Virus record (IMG/VR): IMGVR_UViG_3300027302_000022 | Coordinates: 1 to 31,749 of that record | DNA from: a virus | Direction: 5' to 3' (one strand) | Length of the DNA stretch: 31,749 nucleotides | Part shown: one piece after another, positions 709 through 31,749 of the stretch | Numbering within the stretch: the stretch's first letter is position 1 | Layout of the letters: each line of letters starts with the position of its first letter | The notes under the pieces: generated by a model | Told to the model about the DNA's origin: nothing | The model's input: the letters and a program-made list of their open reading frames with translations, nothing else | Databases searched by the model: none | Translations under genes and position numbers: made by a program

Positions 709-807
709 GCTACCTTAGCTCATCTGGTAGAGCAGCGGCTTAGTTTCTGAGACAAGGTTTCAGTAATGATAACCCGCAGGTGGCCTGTTCGAGTCAGGCA
801 GGTAGCA
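709..807 (+). tRNA. tRNA-like gene with 26-nt insert in the anticodon loop
   Basis: Acceptor stem GCTACCT (709-715) pairs perfectly with AGGTAGC (800-806). D-arm GCTC/GAGC (718-733) has a normal GG-containing loop. The T-arm GCCTG/CAGGC with loop TTCGAGT is also intact. The anticodon stem is GCGG (735-738) with CCGC (774-777), but 35 nt lie between instead of 9. The excess 26 nt contain a hairpin, CTGAGAC (747-753) with GTTTCAG (757-763). Removing bases 741-766 would leave loop TTGATAA, anticodon GAU (Ile), but with a C-C mismatch at the top of the stem. CCA is not encoded (ACCG follows). It is either a tRNA with a tiny intron-like insert, a decoy, or a pseudogene. Confidence 0.65.
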
Positions 808-858
808 CCGATTTCCAATGTGTAAGTGTTTGATTTATCAACCACAGAGGAAATTAAC

Positions 859-4197: not shown

Positions 4198-4274
4198 GCT
4201 TCCTTAGCTCAGGTGGTTAGAGCAACCGACTCATAATCGGTAGGTCACTGGTTCAAGTCCAGTCGGAAGCACCA
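4198..4274 (+). tRNA. tRNA-Ile2 (anticodon CAU, lysidine type)
   Basis: Cloverleaf with acceptor GCTTCCT/CGGAAGC (position 7-66 mismatched), D-arm GCTC/GAGC, anticodon stem ACCGA/TCGGT with loop CTCATAA, T-arm ACTGG TTCAAGT CCAGT, discriminator A and encoded CCA (4272-4274). CAU could mean Met or Ile2. The body closely follows enterobacterial ileX (TTAGCTCAG-GTGGTTAGAGCA, GACTCATAATCG), and a TilS homologue lies 110 nt downstream, so I assign Ile2, which reads AUA only after C34 becomes lysidine. Confidence 0.9.
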
Positions 4275-4359: not shown

Positions 4360-4383
4360 TAATTTTTTATTTTAGGTGTGATA

Positions 4384-4986
4384 ATGGCTAACATTCGTAC
4401 CAAAGTGATTAAACCTTTTACCGACCAAACTTGTGTGGTTGCTTGTTCTGGTGGCGTAGATTCTGTTGCTTTGTTACATTTTATGGTTGGTTATAATAAC
4501 GTTCGGGTAGTTCACATTAATCATAATCCGGGAAATCCGTATGACGATGATTGTGAGCAATTGGTTCGTGATATTGCTAAAGAGTATGGCATTGAAATCG
4601 ACGTACATCATATTGATGTTGCGTATGAAAGTAATGTAGAACATAACTGGCGCAATTTTCGCCAAAAGATTTATCGTGCGTATGCTTGTGATGTTTACCT
4701 TGCACATACGTTAGATGATCAGGTCGAAGAATATCTTATGTCCTCTATTAAGGGGAATGTAAGATTTATTTCATCACATCGTAACAATTTGCGTCGTCCT
4801 TTTCTTCATTTGACAAAGGGTGAAGTTTATGCATATGCAAAGAAACATGAATTGATTTGGATTGAAGACCCGACAAACCATGATTCTTCTAATCAAAGGT
4901 CATTTTGTCGCAATGTTATCGTACCAGAGGCATTGAAGATCAATCCGGGTTTGTATAAAACTGTGTTGCGTTTGTCAACACAGTAA
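4384..4986 (+). CDS. tilS: TilS-like tRNA(Ile)-lysidine synthetase, short form
   Basis: PP-loop ATPase of the TilS/MesJ family, which uses ATP and lysine to convert C34 of tRNA-Ile2(CAU) to lysidine so that it reads AUA instead of AUG and is charged with Ile. Visible motifs: SGGVDS (residues 22-27, PP-loop), HTLDDQVE (108-115) and EDPTN followed by R172 and R176 (161-176), with the closing IVPEAL. At 200 residues it is the catalytic N-terminal domain only; the E. coli enzyme is about 430 residues with C-terminal recognition domains. Start is ATG 4384 (AGG at 4374-4376); GTG 4378 is less likely. It shares a promoter with its likely substrate tRNA. Confidence 0.9.
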   Translation: MANIRTKVIKPFTDQTCVVACSGGVDSVALLHFMVGYNNVRVVHINHNPGNPYDDDCEQLVRDIAKEYGIEIDVHHIDVAYESNVEHNWRNFRQKIYRAYACDVYLAHTLDDQVEEYLMSSIKGNVRFISSHRNNLRRPFLHLTKGEVYAYAKKHELIWIEDPTNHDSSNQRSFCRNVIVPEALKINPGLYKTVLRLSTQ

Positions 4987-6483: not shown

Positions 6484-7563
6484 ATGAGTCAAATCAAAAC
6501 ATTTGGGGGTGTAGTATCAAAAACACAACCTCAAACTATTGCTGACCCCAAACCGGCAGGCAATTCCTTGCAAGATCGCTTGCGCCAGCTTGAAAGTACA
6601 AAGCCGGTTGTACCCCCGGTTATGCCTATACAACCTTCTGCGCCATTACCCGTAAATCGTGAGGTTAAACCAATCCTCAAGCCTTCGGTGAAGGCTGTTT
6701 TGGATGATTCTGAAAACAAGGCTATTGCGGAATCTTTGGCTAAATTGGGGTTTAGTGATTTTGATTTAACAACAATTGAAAAGTCACGAATTTTATTAAT
6801 GCGTGATGACATCAAGATTACTGACCACCATTTTATTACCGAATATGGTGCTGATGTTTCGTCTGAGGAAATAATCAACAAATTGGCAAAGATTGTCAAC
6901 TCATCTTTTTCGGAAGGCATTCGTGCTTCTTTGAATAAGATTATGGCGTCAATTAAGCGTGTTGACATTGATGCAATTTTCAATAAAAGTTTTTTAAAGT
7001 CATTTTTCTCACGTTCTATTACGACACGAGAAGAATATAACATTTTGGAAGCAGAAATCAATAAAGAAGTTGCTAATTGCAAGAATGCATTGGCTAAGCT
7101 AAAGTCTCACATTCCAGAGTTTGATGCCGTGGAGTTGGAGACGGACAAACAGTTTCGTATGCTTTCTGTATTAATTGTTGCTGCGCAGTTGCGTATTGAC
7201 GATGAAAAGAGTAAAATGGCGTCACAGACAACAGCAGTAGAGTTTTTTGCGAAACAGACACTTCAAGATTTGCAAGATGCGTTGGCTCGTTTTGAGCGCC
7301 GTGTTCATAATCTGATGTTGATTCGTCAAACAATTTTGATGCGTATGTCTCAATTACGTCTTGAAGAAAACAATTTCTTGACGTTGATTGACCAAACAAA
7401 CGATATTATTACGTTGGTTATACCAACATGGAAACAACAGATGATTTCTGTTTTTTCTTCAAAGATGAATGGTAACAATGAATATAACAATTTGTTGAAC
7501 ATTCAAAAAGAACTTCTCGAAAAAATGTCAAATGCTACAGGAGCTAAAAATGACAGTGTTTAA
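6484..7563 (+). CDS. TelA-related protein, 359 aa
   Basis: Proline-rich N-terminus (residues 1-65), then a long helical region. RFERRVHNLMLIRQTILMRMSQLRLEEN followed by LVIPTWKQQMISVFS matches, at lower similarity, the core of TelA/KlaA-type toxic-anion-resistance proteins (R-V-x-D-L..., NN..L, TIPxWKxQ) that the next gene carries more faithfully. I read it as a diverged TelA paralogue that may form a pair with its neighbour. It lacks the extended C-terminal part of TelA. No transmembrane segment. It overlaps the telA start by 14 nt, so translation is coupled. Function in tellurite or other stress is known only by family association. Confidence 0.6.
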   Translation: MSQIKTFGGVVSKTQPQTIADPKPAGNSLQDRLRQLESTKPVVPPVMPIQPSAPLPVNREVKPILKPSVKAVLDDSENKAIAESLAKLGFSDFDLTTIEKSRILLMRDDIKITDHHFITEYGADVSSEEIINKLAKIVNSSFSEGIRASLNKIMASIKRVDIDAIFNKSFLKSFFSRSITTREEYNILEAEINKEVANCKNALAKLKSHIPEFDAVELETDKQFRMLSVLIVAAQLRIDDEKSKMASQTTAVEFFAKQTLQDLQDALARFERRVHNLMLIRQTILMRMSQLRLEENNFLTLIDQTNDIITLVIPTWKQQMISVFSSKMNGNNEYNNLLNIQKELLEKMSNATGAKNDSV

Positions 7564-8731
7564 GCCGGTTTCCGCATATACTCAAACAGGACAAGTATCC
7601 AATCAAAACTTGGTTGTGGTTGGTACTGATAAGAATGTTGGCACTTCCGCCATTATACAAAAGGTTTTTGACGCCAACATGCAACGTCTTGTTGCCTCTG
7701 GTATGGATGTCAATGAGTTGCAGCAGCGTGTTTCCAATGCAGTGACAAATTTCAATCCTTACGAAACAACTGCTATCACCAAGCTTGGTTCCGATGCAGG
7801 TGAAAAGATTGTGCGTTTCTCTGATGACATGCTAAAGCATGTGCGCAGTTCCGATGTTGATGGTATTGGTGATAAGATGACCGAAGTTGTCGTCCTTGCC
7901 AAGCAAGTCAATATCAATGGTCTTGTTAATGGTGGATCGAAGATTCCCCTGATTGGTGGTCTTATCAACAAGTTTATTGTTGGTAAGGAAAAGATTGTTG
8001 GACAATACGATTCCCTTTCCAAGCAAATTGAAAAGTTGCTGTCTGAGGTTAGTGTCACACAGAATCGTTTGAATGGCACTATTCAAAATCTTGAAAATGT
8101 ATATCTTTACAACGTTGAAGAATACAAAAATCTCGACACTAGTATTTTGGTTGGTGAAGTCAAGATTGAAGAATTGAACCAACAACTTGAAGAAATGAAG
8201 GCATCGCCAACTGCCGCTACCAATCCCATTGAAGCACAAAATATTTCCGATTTGTCAGGGATTATCGACCGCTTGAAGAAGCGTGTGCATGATTTGAAGA
8301 CTATGCAAATGGTGGCAATTCAAACTGCTCCTATGATTCGCATGATTCAGAGTAACAACCGTACACTGATCGACAAGTTTACGAATCTTACTGAATTGAC
8401 TATTCCCTCTTGGAAGAAGCAATTTGTACTGGCGATTGCATTGATTGAGCAAAAGAATGCAGTTGAACTTGCAACCAAGATTGACGACACGACTAACGAT
8501 ATCATGAAGAAAAATGCAGATTTGTTGAAGATGAACAGTGTTGCCACGGCGAAGGCTAATGAGCGTTCTGTGGTTGACATTCAAACTCTTGAATATGTTC
8601 AGAAGAACCTTATCGAAACAATTGATGAAGTTCAGAAGATCAAGCAGGAAGGTGAAGTTTCCAGAATTGAAGCGGTTAAGAAGATGGAAGACATGAAGTC
8701 TCAATTGATCGAGAAGGTTACTAACCGTTAA
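7550..8731 (+). CDS. telA: TelA family protein (toxic anion resistance), 393 aa
   Basis: Starts ATG 7550 (MTVFKPVSAYTQTGQ) behind AGGAG. Contains the TelA (KlaA/YaaN) hallmarks: LxxVYLYNVEEYKNLDxxILVGEVKIEELN, DRLKKRVHDLKTMQ, QTAPMIRMIQSNNRTLIDKF, LTIPSWKKQFVLAIALIEQ, and the final DDTTNDIMKKNADLL...IETIDEVQKI helices. Length fits the family (about 380-400 aa). A hydrophobic patch IPLIGGLINKF may associate with the membrane. In bacteria TelA proteins accompany Ter genes and confer tellurite resistance by an unresolved mechanism. Here it pairs with an upstream paralogue and a TerC-like gene, making a Ter/Tel stress module. Confidence 0.88.
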   Translation: MTVFKPVSAYTQTGQVSNQNLVVVGTDKNVGTSAIIQKVFDANMQRLVASGMDVNELQQRVSNAVTNFNPYETTAITKLGSDAGEKIVRFSDDMLKHVRSSDVDGIGDKMTEVVVLAKQVNINGLVNGGSKIPLIGGLINKFIVGKEKIVGQYDSLSKQIEKLLSEVSVTQNRLNGTIQNLENVYLYNVEEYKNLDTSILVGEVKIEELNQQLEEMKASPTAATNPIEAQNISDLSGIIDRLKKRVHDLKTMQMVAIQTAPMIRMIQSNNRTLIDKFTNLTELTIPSWKKQFVLAIALIEQKNAVELATKIDDTTNDIMKKNADLLKMNSVATAKANERSVVDIQTLEYVQKNLIETIDEVQKIKQEGEVSRIEAVKKMEDMKSQLIEKVTNR

Positions 8732-8825: not shown

Positions 8826-9848
8826 ATGCTACAACTTATGCGTCATTTCCGTTTCTCCGGTATTTTGGCCGCCCTCTGTTTCCTTGCAGCATATCTGTAT
8901 GCTGGCCCCGCAGGTCTTTTTGTGGCGGTCGTACTTGCTGTTTTGGAAGTTTCTCTGAGCTTTGACAATGCTGTTGTCAATGCTGGTATTTTGCAACATT
9001 GGAATCACTACTGGCGCACCCTATTTTTGACGGTTGGTATTTTCATTGCTGTTTTTGGTATGCGCTTGCTGTTCCCGTTGGTTATTGTTTCACAAACATC
9101 TGACATGTCTATTCTTGAAGCATGGAACATGGCAATCAATAGCCCCAAGGAATATTCTGCTGCCCTGTTGTCTCACCATGCCGAAGTTCTTGCTTATGGT
9201 GGTTCTTTCTTGTTCTTGGTTTTTTTCAACTTCTTGTTTGACCCGGAAAAGGATTTGCACTGGCACTCTTGGCTGGAAGAAAAGATGGCAAAGCTTGGTC
9301 GTGTTGATTCGATGTCCATTCTTGCAACGTTGGCTATCTTGGTAGGTGTAACGAGTTTTGTTCCTGAGCATGAGAAGTTGGCGGTGATGATGGCTGGTAC
9401 TTATGGTATCCTTACTTATCTTGCTGTTGAGTTTATTGGTCATCTGTTGGAAGAAGAAACTGAAAGTGATGTTAATGTAGCAAAGGTTGTTTCGACTGGT
9501 AGTATCGGTGGATTCCTGTACCTTGAAGTTTTGGACGCATCGTTCAGCTTTGACGGAGTTATTGGTGCCTTCGCTATTACTACTGATATTGTTATCATTA
9601 TGTTGGGTCTGTGTGTTGGTGCGTTCTTCGTCCGTTCGATGACTACGTATCTTGTTGATAAGGGAACCTTGCAAGCTTATAAGTTCCTTGAACATGGCGC
9701 ACATTATGCAATTGGCGCACTTGCAACCATCATGCTCATGAGCATTACTCATGAAGTTTCTGAAATCGTGACTGGTTTGATTGGTGTTGGTTTCATTGTG
9801 TGGGCAGTGGCTTCTTCGATCCGCTCGGATAAGAAAGAAGCTGCGTAA
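8826..9848 (+). CDS. terC: TerC-family integral membrane protein (DUF475 type), 340 aa
   Basis: Multi-spanning membrane protein. LEVSLSFDNAVVNAGIL (residues 41-57) and the second copy LEVLDASFSFDGVIGAFA near residue 240 carry the acidic membrane motifs (E-x-x-x-S-x-D-N/G) typical of TerC transporters, and FLTVGIFIAVFGMRLLFPLVIV matches the DUF475 branch. TerC proteins are implicated in metal ion, especially manganese, efflux and in tellurite tolerance. It has its own promoter, ribosome site AAAGGT and a terminator at 9858. It sits between TelA and an ATP-grasp gene, and TerD/VWA partners are encoded about 20 kb away on the other strand. Confidence 0.88.
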   Translation: MLQLMRHFRFSGILAALCFLAAYLYAGPAGLFVAVVLAVLEVSLSFDNAVVNAGILQHWNHYWRTLFLTVGIFIAVFGMRLLFPLVIVSQTSDMSILEAWNMAINSPKEYSAALLSHHAEVLAYGGSFLFLVFFNFLFDPEKDLHWHSWLEEKMAKLGRVDSMSILATLAILVGVTSFVPEHEKLAVMMAGTYGILTYLAVEFIGHLLEEETESDVNVAKVVSTGSIGGFLYLEVLDASFSFDGVIGAFAITTDIVIIMLGLCVGAFFVRSMTTYLVDKGTLQAYKFLEHGAHYAIGALATIMLMSITHEVSEIVTGLIGVGFIVWAVASSIRSDKKEAA

Positions 9849-9895: not shown

Positions 9896-10630
9896 ATGTT
9901 ATTTTTATATCCAAATATGATGTTTGAGAAAACAATAGACCCTGAGTTTCATGATGAAATGATTGAAGCTGACAATCGTGGTTATAAAACGTTGACCTGT
10001 TGGTATGCCCGCAGGGATACTGTCGTGACAGATGTCGTATACCGTGGTTGGATGAAGAACGCTGCTGAATATGATAGTTTTTATAAAAGTCTTCGTTATA
10101 ATGGTATGACACTTATCAACAATCCGCAACAGTATAACAACACCCATTATTTGCACAACTGGTATGATATTTTAGCCGAGTATACTTTTAATACGTATTT
10201 TTTTGACACGGTTGAAGATTCTGTTAATTTTGCAGATTCAATTAATTGTTCTTTTCTTTTGAAGGATGATGTTAAGTCTGGTGGTATTGTAAATGGTGGA
10301 GTTGAGTTAAGGTCAGCACTTGAAAAGATGCGAAAGTATCGAGGTACTGATGGTGCCGGTCGTATATGTCTTCGCCAGTATCATGCGCTAGACAGCTATT
10401 CTGAAAAAAGATTTTTTTGTTTTATGGGAAATGTTTTTTCATGTGATGGTAATGTGCCAACAATAGTTAGCGAAATTGCTAAGAAGATTGATAGTAATTT
10501 TTTTAGTATTGATATCATAGAAGATATTCACGGGAAAGAGTGGTTGGTGGAAATAGGAGACGGGCAAGTGTCAGGAATGAAGAAATGGACTGTTGATAAG
10601 TTCTATGAAATATTTGGCACTTGCAAATAA
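9896..10630 (+). CDS. ATP-grasp-like protein, 244 aa
   Basis: The C-terminal half shows an ATP-grasp pattern: LLKDDVKSGG (phosphate-binding lysine region), RICLRQYHAL and EKRFFCFMGNVF strands, then FFSIDIIEDIHGKEWLVEIGDGQVSG with the metal-binding D/E-x-G end motif. This resembles the R2K-type ATP-grasp proteins of phages and Ter gene neighbourhoods, which ligate a carboxylate to an amine with ATP; the substrate is unknown. Start ATG 9896 with AGGTGATG upstream, just past the terC terminator, so read-through or its own weak promoter would be needed. Identification rests on motif order, not a search. Confidence 0.6.
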   Translation: MLFLYPNMMFEKTIDPEFHDEMIEADNRGYKTLTCWYARRDTVVTDVVYRGWMKNAAEYDSFYKSLRYNGMTLINNPQQYNNTHYLHNWYDILAEYTFNTYFFDTVEDSVNFADSINCSFLLKDDVKSGGIVNGGVELRSALEKMRKYRGTDGAGRICLRQYHALDSYSEKRFFCFMGNVFSCDGNVPTIVSEIAKKIDSNFFSIDIIEDIHGKEWLVEIGDGQVSGMKKWTVDKFYEIFGTCK

Positions 10631-10650
10631 TTTTTAGATGTTAATGCTCC

Positions 10651-10687
10651 CAATGAGAGTGTTAATGTTGCATTATAACTCTCATTG
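10651..10687 (+). promoter_or_regulatory. 10-bp perfect inverted repeat before repeat-protein genes
   Basis: CAATGAGAGT (10651-10660) and ACTCTCATTG (10678-10687), 17 nt apart, with TATAAC (10674-10679) at the edge of the right arm and no T tract. A CTAAATAG late-like box follows at 10693-10700. It could be an operator or the end of upstream transcription. Confidence 0.45.
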
Positions 10688-10721
10688 CTACTCTAAATAG
10701 TAAAATAATTTGGAGTAAAAA

Positions 10722-11408
10722 ATGAAGCAATCATTTAGAAGTTTAGTTGAAAGTATGTTTGGTGTGACTCATGATCTTCATACTGTGCACAATCAAGATA
10801 TACATCAGGCAATTGATTCACCCGCAACATCACATCATATTGACCTCCCACACCTCGTAAAATCGCATTTAACAAGCACTAGTGCATTGGACAGTGCGTC
10901 AGTCCATCATGACCCAGAAGTGCGTAGATCGGCCTTACAGAGCGATTCTCCGCACCTTAATATGAGTCATGTTCACGCAGGACTTAAAGATTCACATCCG
11001 TTAAATCGTATACAGGCAATTCATACATCAAAACGTGTTGGAAATTTAGCATCGGAGCATTTACATACAGCATTACAAGATCACGATGTTGGAGTTCAAA
11101 AGGCTGCTTTAAGCCATCCTAATATCAATAAGGCTCATATTGATACCGCCATGAAAAGTTCACATCCGGAAATACGTCATATGGCTGCGATGCACCACGC
11201 CGCTACCCCACAACATGTCATCAGTCATATAAATAACCCTGAAACATCACAGGCACACAAGATTGAGACGATTAATAGAGCACCCGGAATGCATCAAAAT
11301 GGATTGCATGGATTGTTAAAACATTCGGATGGTGCTGTTCAACATGCTGCCCATGAGGCGTTGAAAACAAGAACTATGCCAAACGCATATCATCCATTGC
11401 ATAGTTAA
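10722..11408 (+). CDS. His-rich helical-repeat protein, possible internal head protein, 228 aa
   Basis: About seven imperfect repeats of some 25-30 residues, each with a core like HPEVRRSALQSDSPHLNxSHV or DVGVQKAALSHPNINKAHID. The V/I-x-x-A-A/A-L helix followed by H-P/S-P resembles HEAT or leucine-rich-variant repeats. The N-terminus MKQSFRSLVES is short, basic and ends L-V-E, like T4 capsid-targeting peptides cut by the gp21 prohead protease after (L/I)xE. I infer a protein packaged in the head and perhaps injected. A CTAAATAG box at 10693-10700 and TTTGGAG ribosome site precede it. The next gene is a paralogue. Confidence 0.65.
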   Translation: MKQSFRSLVESMFGVTHDLHTVHNQDIHQAIDSPATSHHIDLPHLVKSHLTSTSALDSASVHHDPEVRRSALQSDSPHLNMSHVHAGLKDSHPLNRIQAIHTSKRVGNLASEHLHTALQDHDVGVQKAALSHPNINKAHIDTAMKSSHPEIRHMAAMHHAATPQHVISHINNPETSQAHKIETINRAPGMHQNGLHGLLKHSDGAVQHAAHEALKTRTMPNAYHPLHS

Positions 11409-11435
11409 TTTATAAAAGAATAATTGGAGAAAAAA

Positions 11436-11939
11436 ATGAAGCAATCATTTAGACGAATGGTAGAAGGCGCATTGTTTGAGTCAAATGCAGAAGTTGTAGA
11501 TCATAATAATGCAATACATAAAGAAATTGATAATCACCAAAAATCAAATTATGAATATGATCATATTAATTTAGCACCTTTGGTAAAATCACATATGACA
11601 AATGAAAGGGCACTCACAAGATCACAGTCACATCCCGATCTTAGTGTTCGCAGGGCTGTCTTACAAACATCTTCGCCACATCTTAATAAAGAGCATATTA
11701 ATTTTGCTATGGGCGACCCACATCCGGAAGTACGTAGTTTAGCATTGAATATGTCCAATCTTCATGGTGGTGCGACACATGAACAGTTGCATGACGCTCT
11801 ACGTTCAAATCACATAGATGTGCAAAAGGCTGCCTTAAAAAATAAAAATATTGATAAATCACATTTGGGGGCTGCTTCTAAAAGTATCCATCCAGAAGTT
11901 AGAAAATTGGCGGATTCTCACCCATTGAGTGAAAAGTAA
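11436..11939 (+). CDS. paralogue of the preceding helical-repeat protein, 167 aa
   Basis: Starts ATG 11436 behind TTGGAG; the in-frame TTG at 11424 is part of that site. MKQSFRRMVEGALFES repeats the N-terminus of the upstream gene with M-V-E at the putative cut site. The body has the same units (VRRAVLQTSSPHLNKEHIN, VQKAALKNKNIDKSHLG, SIHPEVRKLADSHP), with about five repeats, so the pair arose by tandem duplication. A terminator overlaps its stop codon. The sequence TTTATAAAAG at about 11411-11420 could be a second late-like promoter. Confidence 0.65.
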   Translation: MKQSFRRMVEGALFESNAEVVDHNNAIHKEIDNHQKSNYEYDHINLAPLVKSHMTNERALTRSQSHPDLSVRRAVLQTSSPHLNKEHINFAMGDPHPEVRSLALNMSNLHGGATHEQLHDALRSNHIDVQKAALKNKNIDKSHLGAASKSIHPEVRKLADSHPLSEK

Positions 11940-29010: not shown

Positions 29011-29038
29011 AAAAAGCCGGGAACATTCCCGGCTTTTT
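29011..29038. terminator. bidirectional terminator after VWA gene
   Basis: AAAGCCGGGAA and TTCCCGGCTTT form a strong hairpin with A and T tracts on the two sides. It ends the minus-strand Ter operon and can also act on the plus strand. Confidence 0.9.
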
Positions 29039-29050
29039 GAACACATCACA

Positions 29051-29734
29051 TTAGAACTTTTTGATCCAGTCAGCAAATTCTTGAGTGATCATCTTTTCGA
29101 TCATTTCTTCGTCAGAAAGTTTCCTAACATCATAGATTTGGTCGAAACCAACATTAGGCTCTTGTTCGGCAATCTTCTTGACGTAGTTGAGACTAGCACC
29201 ACCAACACCAATGATTTGGATGTAGATGTTCTTGGTACGGAAATCCTTCAACAAACGTTCAAAATCGGAATGGTCGCTGTTTTCCCCATCGGTAACGAAG
29301 AAAACGATGACAGGTTGTTCAGTCTTCTTTCCCTTGCCAAACAAAGACATAAAGCCCTTGCCGCTGCCGAAATACTTGTCGTAGATGTTCTTTAAAACTG
29401 GCCCATATTCTGTGCCACCCCACTTGGAAACTAATGGGTTGTTTAGAACCTTGCGCCTGACATAATCTTCAACTTGATCTTCGTTAACAGTACCGATGTA
29501 GTCCTGTCCAGAACTGAATGTCCAGAAGTCAAGCTTACCGTCTTGGTCAAAACGCATTGCAAGTGCAAGAATACGTTCTACAATTTCTTGTACAACACCA
29601 TCACGATATTCGTTAGACATTGAACCTGAGATGTCAATAGCAACGCCAACTTCACATGCAGGCGGTGTAACAATCTTACGCTTAGCTAGAACGATTCCTG
29701 CGGCTTCCTTCTTCTTTTCGAGATTAATACCCAT
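29051..29734 (-). CDS. VWA-domain protein (TerY/TerF-like), 227 aa
   Basis: Von Willebrand A domain: VGVAIDISGSMS (residues 29-40) is the metal-ion-dependent adhesion site D-x-S-x-S; GGTEYGPVL supplies the threonine and FFVTDGENSD the second aspartate. In bacterial Ter systems such VWA proteins accompany TerD proteins and are thought to hold metal and assemble membrane-linked complexes. It lies 2 nt after a TerD gene, within a PH-TerD-TerD-VWA operon ending at the terminator 29011. The opening MGINLEKKKEAAG matches the TerD-fusion junction seen in TerF. Confidence 0.88.
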   Translation of the reverse strand: MGINLEKKKEAAGIVLAKRKIVTPPACEVGVAIDISGSMSNEYRDGVVQEIVERILALAMRFDQDGKLDFWTFSSGQDYIGTVNEDQVEDYVRRKVLNNPLVSKWGGTEYGPVLKNIYDKYFGSGKGFMSLFGKGKKTEQPVIVFFVTDGENSDHSDFERLLKDFRTKNIYIQIIGVGGASLNYVKKIAEQEPNVGFDQIYDVRKLSDEEMIEKMITQEFADWIKKF

Positions 29735-29736
29735 GA

Positions 29737-30297
29737 TTAGTTGTACCCCGCATAGAAGTCGCCAAGGTCAAGGGTGTAGCCAGCACCAACAGCCTTGAAT
29801 TCCCAAGTTCCGTTGGTCTTCACCAGAGAACCAAATTGTACTGCGGTTTCCTTGCCATAGTTAGCGTCAAGGTCATATTCAGCAATCGGAGTTCCAGTAA
29901 CGTCATCATAGACACGCACATAGGCGCTGCTCAGTTTACCGAAAGAGTGACCACGCTTGATGGCTTCATGGATAGTGACGATAATCGAGATTTCAGCCAC
30001 TTCACTTTCAAGCTTCATCAGATCAACAATGATAGTTTCATCATCACCATCACCTGCACCAGTGCGGTTATCGCCAGAGTGAACGACAGCGCCATTCGGG
30101 GTGGACTTGTTGTTATAGAAGACAAAGTGATTATCAGAAAGAAGCTTTGGCTCATTCGCAGAGTTAAGCTTACAAACAAAGACGCTTGCATCCAGATCGA
30201 GAGGGGAAGCTTCCCAACCCAGACCGATACGAACCTTAGTCAGACCGGGAGCAACCTTGTTCAGATTAACGCCTTCACCCTTAGAGAGATTTACCAT
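29737..30297 (-). CDS. terD: TerD-family stress protein, 186 aa
   Basis: Complete TerD domain: MVNLSKGEGVNLNKVAPGLT, GLGWEASPLDLDASVF, HFVFYNNKSTPNGAVVHSGDNRTG, GDGDDETIIVDL, and VRVYDDVTGTPIAEYDL with FGSLVKTNGTWEF..GAGY. TerD proteins are calcium-binding beta-sandwich proteins (acidic LDLDAS and DxDDE loops) of tellurite/stress resistance. Length (about 190 aa) is normal. Two codon-level paralogues in tandem suggest a hetero-oligomer, as TerD/TerE. Ribosome site AGGTAAATG. Confidence 0.95.
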   Translation of the reverse strand: MVNLSKGEGVNLNKVAPGLTKVRIGLGWEASPLDLDASVFVCKLNSANEPKLLSDNHFVFYNNKSTPNGAVVHSGDNRTGAGDGDDETIIVDLMKLESEVAEISIIVTIHEAIKRGHSFGKLSSAYVRVYDDVTGTPIAEYDLDANYGKETAVQFGSLVKTNGTWEFKAVGAGYTLDLGDFYAGYN

Positions 30298-30332
30298 TTT
30301 TTCATTTACCTTTTGTGTGTGAAAATTAAAGT

Positions 30333-30929
30333 TTACTTTGTGGCTGGAAGATATTGATTAACAATATCACCAAGACCAAGCTTGTACCCAGCCCCGACTG
30401 CATTGAACGTCCAACCGTTGACATCACGAATGACAGAACCGAACTGTACGGAAGTGATTTTATCATATTGGTTGTCAAGTTTGTACTCACAAATTGTATC
30501 ATTTGTGTTACCATCATAGATGCGAATATAGGCATTAGACAACATCCCGAAATGCTGACGCTTTTCAATACCTTCGTGGATAGTCACAAAGAAAGAAAGT
30601 TCAGTAACTTCACGTTCAATCTTGTCAAGGTCAATACGAATGGTTTCGCAGTCGCCATTTTCGTCACCATCACCACCAGAACGGTCATCACCAGAGTGGA
30701 CAATGCTGCCATTAGGAGTTGCCAAATTGTTATAGAAAACAAAGTGACGTTCGGTTAGAATCTTTGGTTGCGACTTGCGATCCAAGGCACAAGCGAAAAC
30801 GCTTGCATCAAGGTCAATGTTGATGTTGCCTTCATTCCAACCGAGGCCAACACGGATGTTTTTAAGACTAGGCTTGGTCTTCGTCAGATTGATACCTTCG
30901 CCCTTACGCAGATTAATTGTGTTCGACAT
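30333..30929 (-). CDS. TerD-family paralogue, 198 aa
   Basis: Start at 30929 (MSNTINLRKGEGINLTKTKP), within the end of the PH-domain gene. It has the TerD motifs NIDLDASVFACALD, HFVFYNNLATPNGSIVHSGD, GDGDENGDCETIRIDL and IRIYDGNTNDTICEYKL. It differs from its neighbour by a longer acidic Asp/Gly loop (DDRSGGDGDENGD) and added C-terminal residues. All calcium-binding acidic residues remain. Operon mate of the next TerD gene, 35 nt apart. Confidence 0.93.
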   Translation of the reverse strand: MSNTINLRKGEGINLTKTKPSLKNIRVGLGWNEGNINIDLDASVFACALDRKSQPKILTERHFVFYNNLATPNGSIVHSGDDRSGGDGDENGDCETIRIDLDKIEREVTELSFFVTIHEGIEKRQHFGMLSNAYIRIYDGNTNDTICEYKLDNQYDKITSVQFGSVIRDVNGWTFNAVGAGYKLGLGDIVNQYLPATK

Positions 30930-31407
30930 TATTTTTTTCCAGTTGTTTAAGAATTTTTTCAAGAAGAATAATTTGTTGGTTGCTTACCATTTCTTCTTGA
31001 CGCCTAAGTTCCAATTGACGGTTCAAGATTTCTTGCTTGAACTGTTCCGCACCTTCAACACCTACCAATGAAATGTTAGACGATGAACCTGCTGCCATGA
31101 TTTTGATAATATTGATACCAAAATATTTCAACAGTGGGCCTTCAACTAGAACAACATCTTGGATTTTATCCAAAGGCATGGTGATGATTTCACGGAAAAA
31201 TGCACCGCTTGAAAACTTGATATAACGTTCATCAAGTTCACAGAACATCTTTTCATAATTGATACGGGAGTACCATTGACCAATCCCTAACATCCATAGT
31301 AGGGCCAGAGGAATCGTTACAGTGCCATGCATAAGCTTTACGGCAATGTCGATAAGGGTGTACGTTTTTACCACAGGATTAAATGAGACTTTAATCGTTT
31401 GAGACAT
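30913..31407 (-). CDS. bacterial PH-domain membrane protein, 164 aa
   Basis: Start 31407 (MSQTIKVSFNPVVKTYTLID) behind TTGGAAA; a longer frame upstream runs through the tRNA-like gene. A hydrophobic stretch (GTVTIPLALLWMLGIGQWYS) forms one or two membrane spans, followed by ERYIKFSSGAFFREIITMPL, DKIQDVVLVEGPLLKYFGIN and SLVGVEGAEQFKQEILNRQ, the pattern of the bPH2/YdbT-type bacterial PH domain. A C-terminal charged coiled coil follows (RRQEEMVSNQQIILLEKILK). First gene of the Ter operon, so it may anchor TerD/VWA complexes at the membrane (inference). Confidence 0.8.
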   Translation of the reverse strand: MSQTIKVSFNPVVKTYTLIDIAVKLMHGTVTIPLALLWMLGIGQWYSRINYEKMFCELDERYIKFSSGAFFREIITMPLDKIQDVVLVEGPLLKYFGINIIKIMAAGSSSNISLVGVEGAEQFKQEILNRQLELRRQEEMVSNQQIILLEKILKQLEKNNVEHN

Positions 31408-31431
31408 TTTATTTCCAAAGTTGTTAAGAAA

Positions 31432-31562
31432 TGGTAGAAAGCTGTGGAATCTAACCACAACATTCCGGTGCATGTTCCCGGTCGTACTTAATATAGAGTG
31501 TTTAACTATGCGGCCTTACCCGTTCACGAGTCCTCTATATCTCTTCATTATACTAACTTTCT
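31432..31562 (-). ncRNA. tRNA-like RNA with greatly enlarged D-arm
   Basis: On the minus strand, acceptor AGAAAGT (31562-31556) pairs with GCTTTCT (31442-31436), followed by A73 and encoded CCA (31434-31432). The T-arm TGTGG TTAGATT CCACA and a 17-nt anticodon arm CCGGG AACATGC ACCGG with 5-nt variable loop are normally placed. D-stem GTAT (31553-31550) and GTAC (31487-31484) are separated by 62 nt, which form an 8-bp hairpin ATATAGAG/CTCTATAT (31540-31533 with 31498-31491). The T-loop lacks the C of TTC, and the base before CAU is A, not U. It is therefore unlikely to decode. It starts on the last base of the adjacent tRNA. Confidence 0.5.
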
Positions 31563-31749
31563 GGTGCGAAAGGTGGGACTCGAACCCACAACACAATGCT
31601 TCTAAGGCATTTGACTCTAACCGTTGGTCTACTTTCGCATATTTGTAAATTCCTCTTTGTATTCTATAATAGATACATTCAGGGGTTACATTTAATTTTT
31701 CTCCTGCCTCTTTCATGCTATTATAAACAATACCATTATCATCTATAAC
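31516..31749 (-). CDS. 3' end of intron-endonuclease repeat (IENR1/NUMOD1-like) reading into the tRNA
   Basis: The frame enters at the window edge: VIDDNGIVYNSMKEAGEKLN, then VTPECIYYRIQRGIYKYAKVD. The pattern G-x-V-Y-x-S-x-x-E-A-x-x-x-L-x-V-x-x-x-x-I-x-x-x-I is that of IENR1/NUMOD1 DNA-binding repeats at the ends of phage homing endonucleases. The domain reaches the 5' acceptor of the tRNA (31638) and the frame continues through it to a stop at 31516. The real product may end there, or be a decayed remnant. A nuclease domain, if present, lies beyond the window. Confidence 0.6.
   Translation of the reverse strand, partial: VIDDNGIVYNSMKEAGEKLNVTPECIYYRIQRGIYKYAKVDQRLESNALEALCCGFESHLSHQKVSIMKRYRGLVNG
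31562..31638 (-). tRNA. tRNA with anticodon UAG (Leu codon CUA) but short variable loop
   Basis: Minus strand cloverleaf: acceptor GCGAAAG/CTTTCGC, D-arm GACC...GAGTC (3-bp stem), anticodon stem AATGC/GCATT with loop CTTAGAA, variable loop GTGTT, T-arm GTGGG TTCGAGT CCCAC, A73 and encoded CCA. UAG reads CUA and implies leucine, and the acceptor/T-arm resemble T4 tRNA-Leu, yet bacterial tRNA-Leu has a long variable arm and this has 5 nt. Either a class I leucine tRNA or a tRNA of other charging identity. Confidence 0.85.

Follow-up and report, generated by a model that had tools for sequence, protein, structure and literature searches.

A bPH_2 gene in front of a phage TerD-TerD-TerF unit: probably a local extra on one half of a split Ter module

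A virus record of 31,749 bases, which was analysed over its whole length and is referred to here as the window, contains on its minus strand a gene for a bPH_2 protein that runs head to tail into two TerD genes and a gene for a TerF-like protein with a vWA domain. This arrangement raises the question whether the PH protein is a partner of TerD, which anchors the TerD/vWA assembly to the membrane, a gene that was added to a known module in this phage, or a gene that lies there by chance. The reading that we favour, with a probability of roughly 0.6, is that the unit represents half of a phage Ter module and that the PH protein is a local extra rather than a standard Ter component.

The four-gene unit extends from position 31407 to position 29051. 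It starts with the gene coding for the bPH_2 protein (30913..31407, minus strand, 164 amino acids), whose domain match to Pfam PF03703 reaches 44.9 bits at a curated cut-off of 22 (E-value 1.4e-11). The following genes of the same strand encode TerD1 (30333..30929, 198 amino acids; PF02342, 193 bits), TerD2 (29737..30297, 186 amino acids; PF02342, 202 bits) and a TerF-like vWA protein, which is devoid of a TerD domain (29051..29734, 227 amino acids; PF10138, 127 bits; PHROG 5359, E-value 1e-66). The bPH_2 stop codon is located inside terD1, with an overlap of 17 nt between the two genes, and TerD1 and TerD2 are separated by 35 nt, TerD2 and TerF by 2 nt. An intrinsic terminator hairpin (29011..29038, minus strand; fold -19.1 kcal/mol, z-score -5.07) lies directly 3' of the TerF stop; it was absent from a simple terminator scan, probably because its stem extends into the T run. 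Since the gaps are tight, the first junction overlaps and a terminator follows right after TerF, the natural reading of the sequence is that bPH_2, TerD1, TerD2 and TerF form one transcription unit. This agrees with the initial annotation, in which the bPH_2 gene was described as the first gene of a TerD-TerD-VWA operon that overlaps the terD start. The unit is preceded by a leader (31408..31561, minus strand), which belongs to no known RNA family: it had no match in Rfam, and the folding of 148 of its 154 nt was unremarkable (z-score -1.27). Directly upstream of this leader, a tRNA-Leu (tag) was detected by ARAGORN and Rfam (31562..31638, minus strand).

The product of the first gene consists of an N-terminal hydrophobic stretch, the PH domain at residues 57-126 and a C-terminal helix. 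It had been annotated as a membrane protein, an assignment with only moderate support: the highest Kyte-Doolittle mean over 19 residues, found at residues 25-43, is borderline (1.55); however, the same residues are hydrophobic in the alignment of the protein family. A structure model built from the single sequence reached a mean pLDDT of 43, and the helix spanning residues 120-163 was its only confident part. Full-length relatives of the PH protein were detected by a profile search in ten of 300 genomes belonging to the order of Massilia sp. H-1, which we take to be the Burkholderiales; an eleventh relative is a fragment. The relatives are 27-37% identical to the window protein (nine of the ten were aligned; the one left out, L227, is nearly identical to L225) and share with it the length, the hydrophobic N-terminus, an IQDV-x(3)-EGP motif in the PH domain and the C-terminal helix. 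The window protein alone retrieved one match from 274 genomes of the class of a second reference genome, and the family alignment retrieved one weak match from 244 genomes of the order of that same reference. No other member of the family was found in viral contigs, or in a phage collection searched with the window protein. A bacterial PH relative used as query gave two weak partial matches in unannotated Staphylococcus phage records, and seven plasmid records contain weak partial matches. The bPH_2 family of the Massilia order stands alone: it resembles the window protein over the full length; however, it has no linkage to Ter genes there. We infer that the PH protein of the window was captured from this family, as a lineage-specific extra.

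If the PH protein were a regular partner of TerD, the two genes would be expected to recur side by side. Among 31 other viral records bearing TerD or TerF (one set of 16 records and one of 15 phages), several of which are near kin or fragments, none contained a bPH_2 domain above the Pfam cut-off when the whole records were searched. Phage Kikimora has a sub-threshold match of 13.9 bits, the distance of which to TerD exceeds 150 kb. The record CAKLQH020000013.1, filed as Acinetobacter phage MD-2021a, was excluded from the count: the part shown lacks an annotated TerD and contains ordinary chromosomal genes, and the record may be a bacterial contig. For bacteria, a purpose-built bPH_2 model was used, which was based on 16 bacterial domains together with the window protein and which detected, as a control, a bacterial bPH_2 gene absent from its building set; single-sequence pattern scans for PH detect close relatives only. 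With this model, no bPH_2 gene was detected around any of 80 bacterial TerD loci within the flanks fetched. The loci belong to the 80 best-matching of 479 relatives, are skewed towards TerD2-like TerDs and cover at most 8 kb on each side, with some flanks ended by contig ends. Twelve of 31 whole bacterial genomes with TerD have a bPH_2 protein; among the matches listed, no bPH_2 gene lies within 10 kb of TerD in these 31 genomes, and the nearest listed pair, in Massilia sp. H-1, is 18.6 kb apart. The reverse search led to the same picture: Ter genes were absent from the fetched flanks of all ten loci of the PH family, two of which are short (4.2 kb in total; about 0.2 kb on one side), while others extend to as much as roughly 9 kb per side. 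Furthermore, a TerD match is missing in seven of the ten genomes with a full-length member of the PH family, some of which may be incomplete. The proposal that the PH protein tethers a TerD/VWA assembly had been coupled to the statement that PH homologues never found next to TerD would speak against it, and recurrence of PH beside TerD was indeed not found in any of these surveys. Within their limits, the viral records, the bacterial TerD loci and the PH loci speak against the PH protein as a general TerD partner.

The missing recurrence could also mean that the PH protein has nothing to do with TerD. It might be an unrelated phage gene, acting for instance on the host envelope, which came to lie upstream by chance; gene order in phages is shuffled, short overlaps are common, and no neighbour is common to more than three of the ten loci of the PH family if frames overlapping the PH gene are excluded. 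However, the PH gene is on the same strand as the Ter genes, overlaps terD1 and is followed by short gaps only, up to the terminator, and we regard a chance arrangement as rather unlikely.

At the level of whole genomes, PH and TerD are found together more often than expected. The 300 genomes of the Massilia order include twelve with TerD, eleven with PH (the ten full-length proteins and the fragment) and three with both, compared with 0.44 expected; the hypergeometric P-value is 0.007, and 0.047 without Massilia sp. H-1, a genome that was picked for holding both. In the genus of Massilia sp. H-1, PH is present in four of 17 genomes, all four of which also possess TerD, which occurs in 13 of the 17 overall. 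Two of these four genomes carry PH and TerD on one contig, 12.5 and 18.4 kb apart and with shared chromosomal ORFs in the interval, which does not amount to an operon. We read this co-occurrence as the result of kinship and synteny, weak and confounded; a loose link may exist. A literature search retrieved no paper joining TerD, a PH domain and vWA, and among the papers listed by a further search none dealt with Ter by title; the term 'PH domain' does not occur in PMC7824862 and PMC7159879. According to a rival reading, PH would be a genuine partner of TerD in general, anchoring TerD and TerF to the membrane and overlooked through rare linkage. This is favoured by the overlap with terD1 in one unit, by the co-occurrence in the Massilia order and by the loose proximity in two genomes of one genus, but the viral and bacterial TerD loci devoid of bPH_2 and the PH-bearing genomes without TerD speak against it, and we consider it improbable.

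The favoured reading, a Ter module with a local extra, draws on the remainder of the window. A second Ter block on the plus strand encodes a TelA-like protein (6484..7563; PF05816, 64.8 bits), TelA (7532..8731; PF05816, 284.6 bits) and a TerC/DUF475 membrane protein (8826..9848; PF04332, 341 bits; PF03741, 56 bits). The ORFs of TelA-like and TelA, as listed, overlap by 32 nt (7532-7563, plus strand), and the block is directly followed by a gene for an R2K ATP-grasp protein and two HEAT-like genes (9896-11939, plus strand). TelA, TerC, TerD and TerF are therefore all present in one fragment, which may not be the whole genome; they are distributed over two blocks, which lie on opposite strands with about 19 kb between them. 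The one contiguous operon that is common, albeit not universal, among phage Ter systems is not found in the window. The four-gene unit and the second block together are a phage Ter module of the published kind, in two pieces. Jumbo-phage Ter systems have been described, for which a role against superinfecting phages was proposed (PMC7824862, 2021), and the genes terC, terD, terF and telA are listed for Pseudomonas phage Psa374 (PMC9796965).

In Caulobacter, Rhizobium and Pseudomonas phages, genes named TelA, vWA, TerC/DUF475 and TerD in the records are arranged side by side, and the records of Brevundimonas and CcrSC phages show the same gene order with less full names. These operons and the window have the same four families in common, including a vWA protein without a TerD domain and, in several cases, a TerC of the DUF475 type; in contrast to them, the module of the window is split, contains two genes each of the TelA and TerD families, and has a bPH_2 gene at the head of its TerD block. 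The Ter genes of phi92 are scattered over about 6.6 kb, and other phages have TerD with only part of the Ter set in the stretch seen. Related loci also exist on chromosomes: out of the 80 bacterial TerD loci, nine were mapped, and TelA is located near TerD in eight of them (Vibrio, Photobacterium, Agitococcus, Massilia and Aquabacterium). The loci of Photobacterium, Vibrio and Agitococcus share the pair of a divergent, TelA-like protein followed by a normal TelA, and Aquabacterium also has TerF; unlike in the window, a PH protein is absent nearby. None of eight window proteins was matched by the PADLOC models of known anti-phage defence systems at an E-value of 0.01.

The window also encodes T4-type replication proteins, namely members of the single-strand binding protein and helicase loader families, and several tRNAs that were predicted by ARAGORN. 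A tRNA with the anticodon CAT (4198-4274, plus strand), called Met by ARAGORN, lies next to a gene with the N-domain of a TilS-type tRNA lysidine synthetase (4378-4986, plus strand; NCBIfam TIGR02432, 116 bits at a cut-off of 93.6); possibly, a tRNA-Ile2 and the enzyme that converts it are both encoded by the phage itself. A tRNA-Gln of 101 nt (709-809, plus strand) was found by ARAGORN and not reported by Rfam; it may be a false prediction or contain an insert.

The TerD gene is present twice in the unit, and the two proteins share 56% identity, while TerD2 is 62% identical to a TerD of Aquabacterium. The Asp/Gly region binds calcium in TerD. As proposed in the initial annotation, one of the two proteins has an extended Asp/Gly loop: the loop of TerD1 (30645..30689, minus strand) comprises 13 residues according to a sequence pattern, that of TerD2 ten. 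Both proteins can be aligned over nearly their whole length with the solved TerD 2kxt/2kxv, presumably the Klebsiella protein, from which TerD1 differs by its longer loop. A long loop is not special to the window phage: among 205 TerD domains, the loop has ten residues in 136 and 12-14 residues in 34, with 19 domains lacking a pattern match and some of the other lengths being misreadings by the simple pattern. In a tree of 117 of the 205 domains, which were kept after length and redundancy filters, both window TerDs fall in the same part, among phage TerDs and TelA-linked proteobacterial TerDs. A sister relationship is recovered in 52% of 200 bootstrap trees (support 50/31), and a separate origin of TerD1 and TerD2 is not shown by the tree. 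The branch of TerD1 is longer than that of TerD2 (0.82 vs 0.44). Judged from the sequences, it is plausible that TerD1 and TerD2 are not redundant, as the initial annotation had suggested.

A feature common to TerD and TerF is found at their N-termini. A pattern scan revealed a double phi-x-L-x-K motif in TerD1 (30879..30917), TerD2 (30256..30294) and TerF (29681..29728; all minus strand), and no other listed ORF of the window contains it within the first 60 residues. The motif is present in 132 of 193 TerDs compared with 14 of 3840 control ORFs. As controls, ORFs of at least 150 amino acids were listed mechanically and scanned over residues 1-45, whereas TerD and TerF were scanned around the start of the profile match. 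Of 23 TerF-like proteins devoid of a TerD match, 17 also contain the motif; the TerF proteins are related to each other, and four of them were used to build the model. The motif is N-terminal in 16 of these 17, and in the remaining one (L077) it lies near residue 300 of a 554-amino-acid ORF. In the first 60 residues of 57 TelA, 18 TelA-like and 18 TerC proteins, sets that may overlap, it was not found. The pattern was drawn up after viewing the sequences and loosened once; its first form recognized 11 of 25 TerF-like proteins, the TerF of the window not being among them. In TerF, the motif may be what is left of a lost TerD domain, namely its first hairpin; alternatively, TerF and TerD may use it to dock on each other or on one partner. 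On present sequence evidence, the shared motif is a better lead for a link between TerD and TerF than the PH protein. No paper on it was identified by title in the literature search, the reach of which did not include the 2012 Ter paper.

With the PH protein as a local extra, the following model can be envisaged. The Ter module would act on the cytoplasmic side of the host membrane. TerC would be embedded in this membrane, TelA and the vWA protein TerF would form a layer beneath it, and TerD would bind a metal or a small ligand. TerD and TerF would contact each other via the shared N-terminal motif. In keeping with the sensing and exclusion roles considered in the literature, the module could shield the infected cell from competing phages or membrane stress. 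The PH protein would be co-expressed with the TerDs and may bring some of the assembled proteins to the membrane in the window phage; a function as a tether in this phage is possible. It is tempting to go further and to speculate that TerD and TerF dock on each other, or swap, via the shared N-terminal hairpin and thereby form a mixed sub-membrane layer, that the captured PH protein, the translation of which would be coupled to that of TerD1, pins this layer either to membrane lipids or to a protein of the membrane, and that the longer acidic loop of TerD1 serves the new contact; taken as a whole, this more elaborate scheme appears quite unlikely.

Taken together, the PH gene would illustrate how a phage extends a known module by a captured host gene, and in view of the negative survey the PH protein should stay off the lists of Ter components pending more evidence. 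For the cooperation of Ter proteins, the motif shared by TerD and by TerF proteins devoid of a TerD domain may offer a concrete and testable contact.
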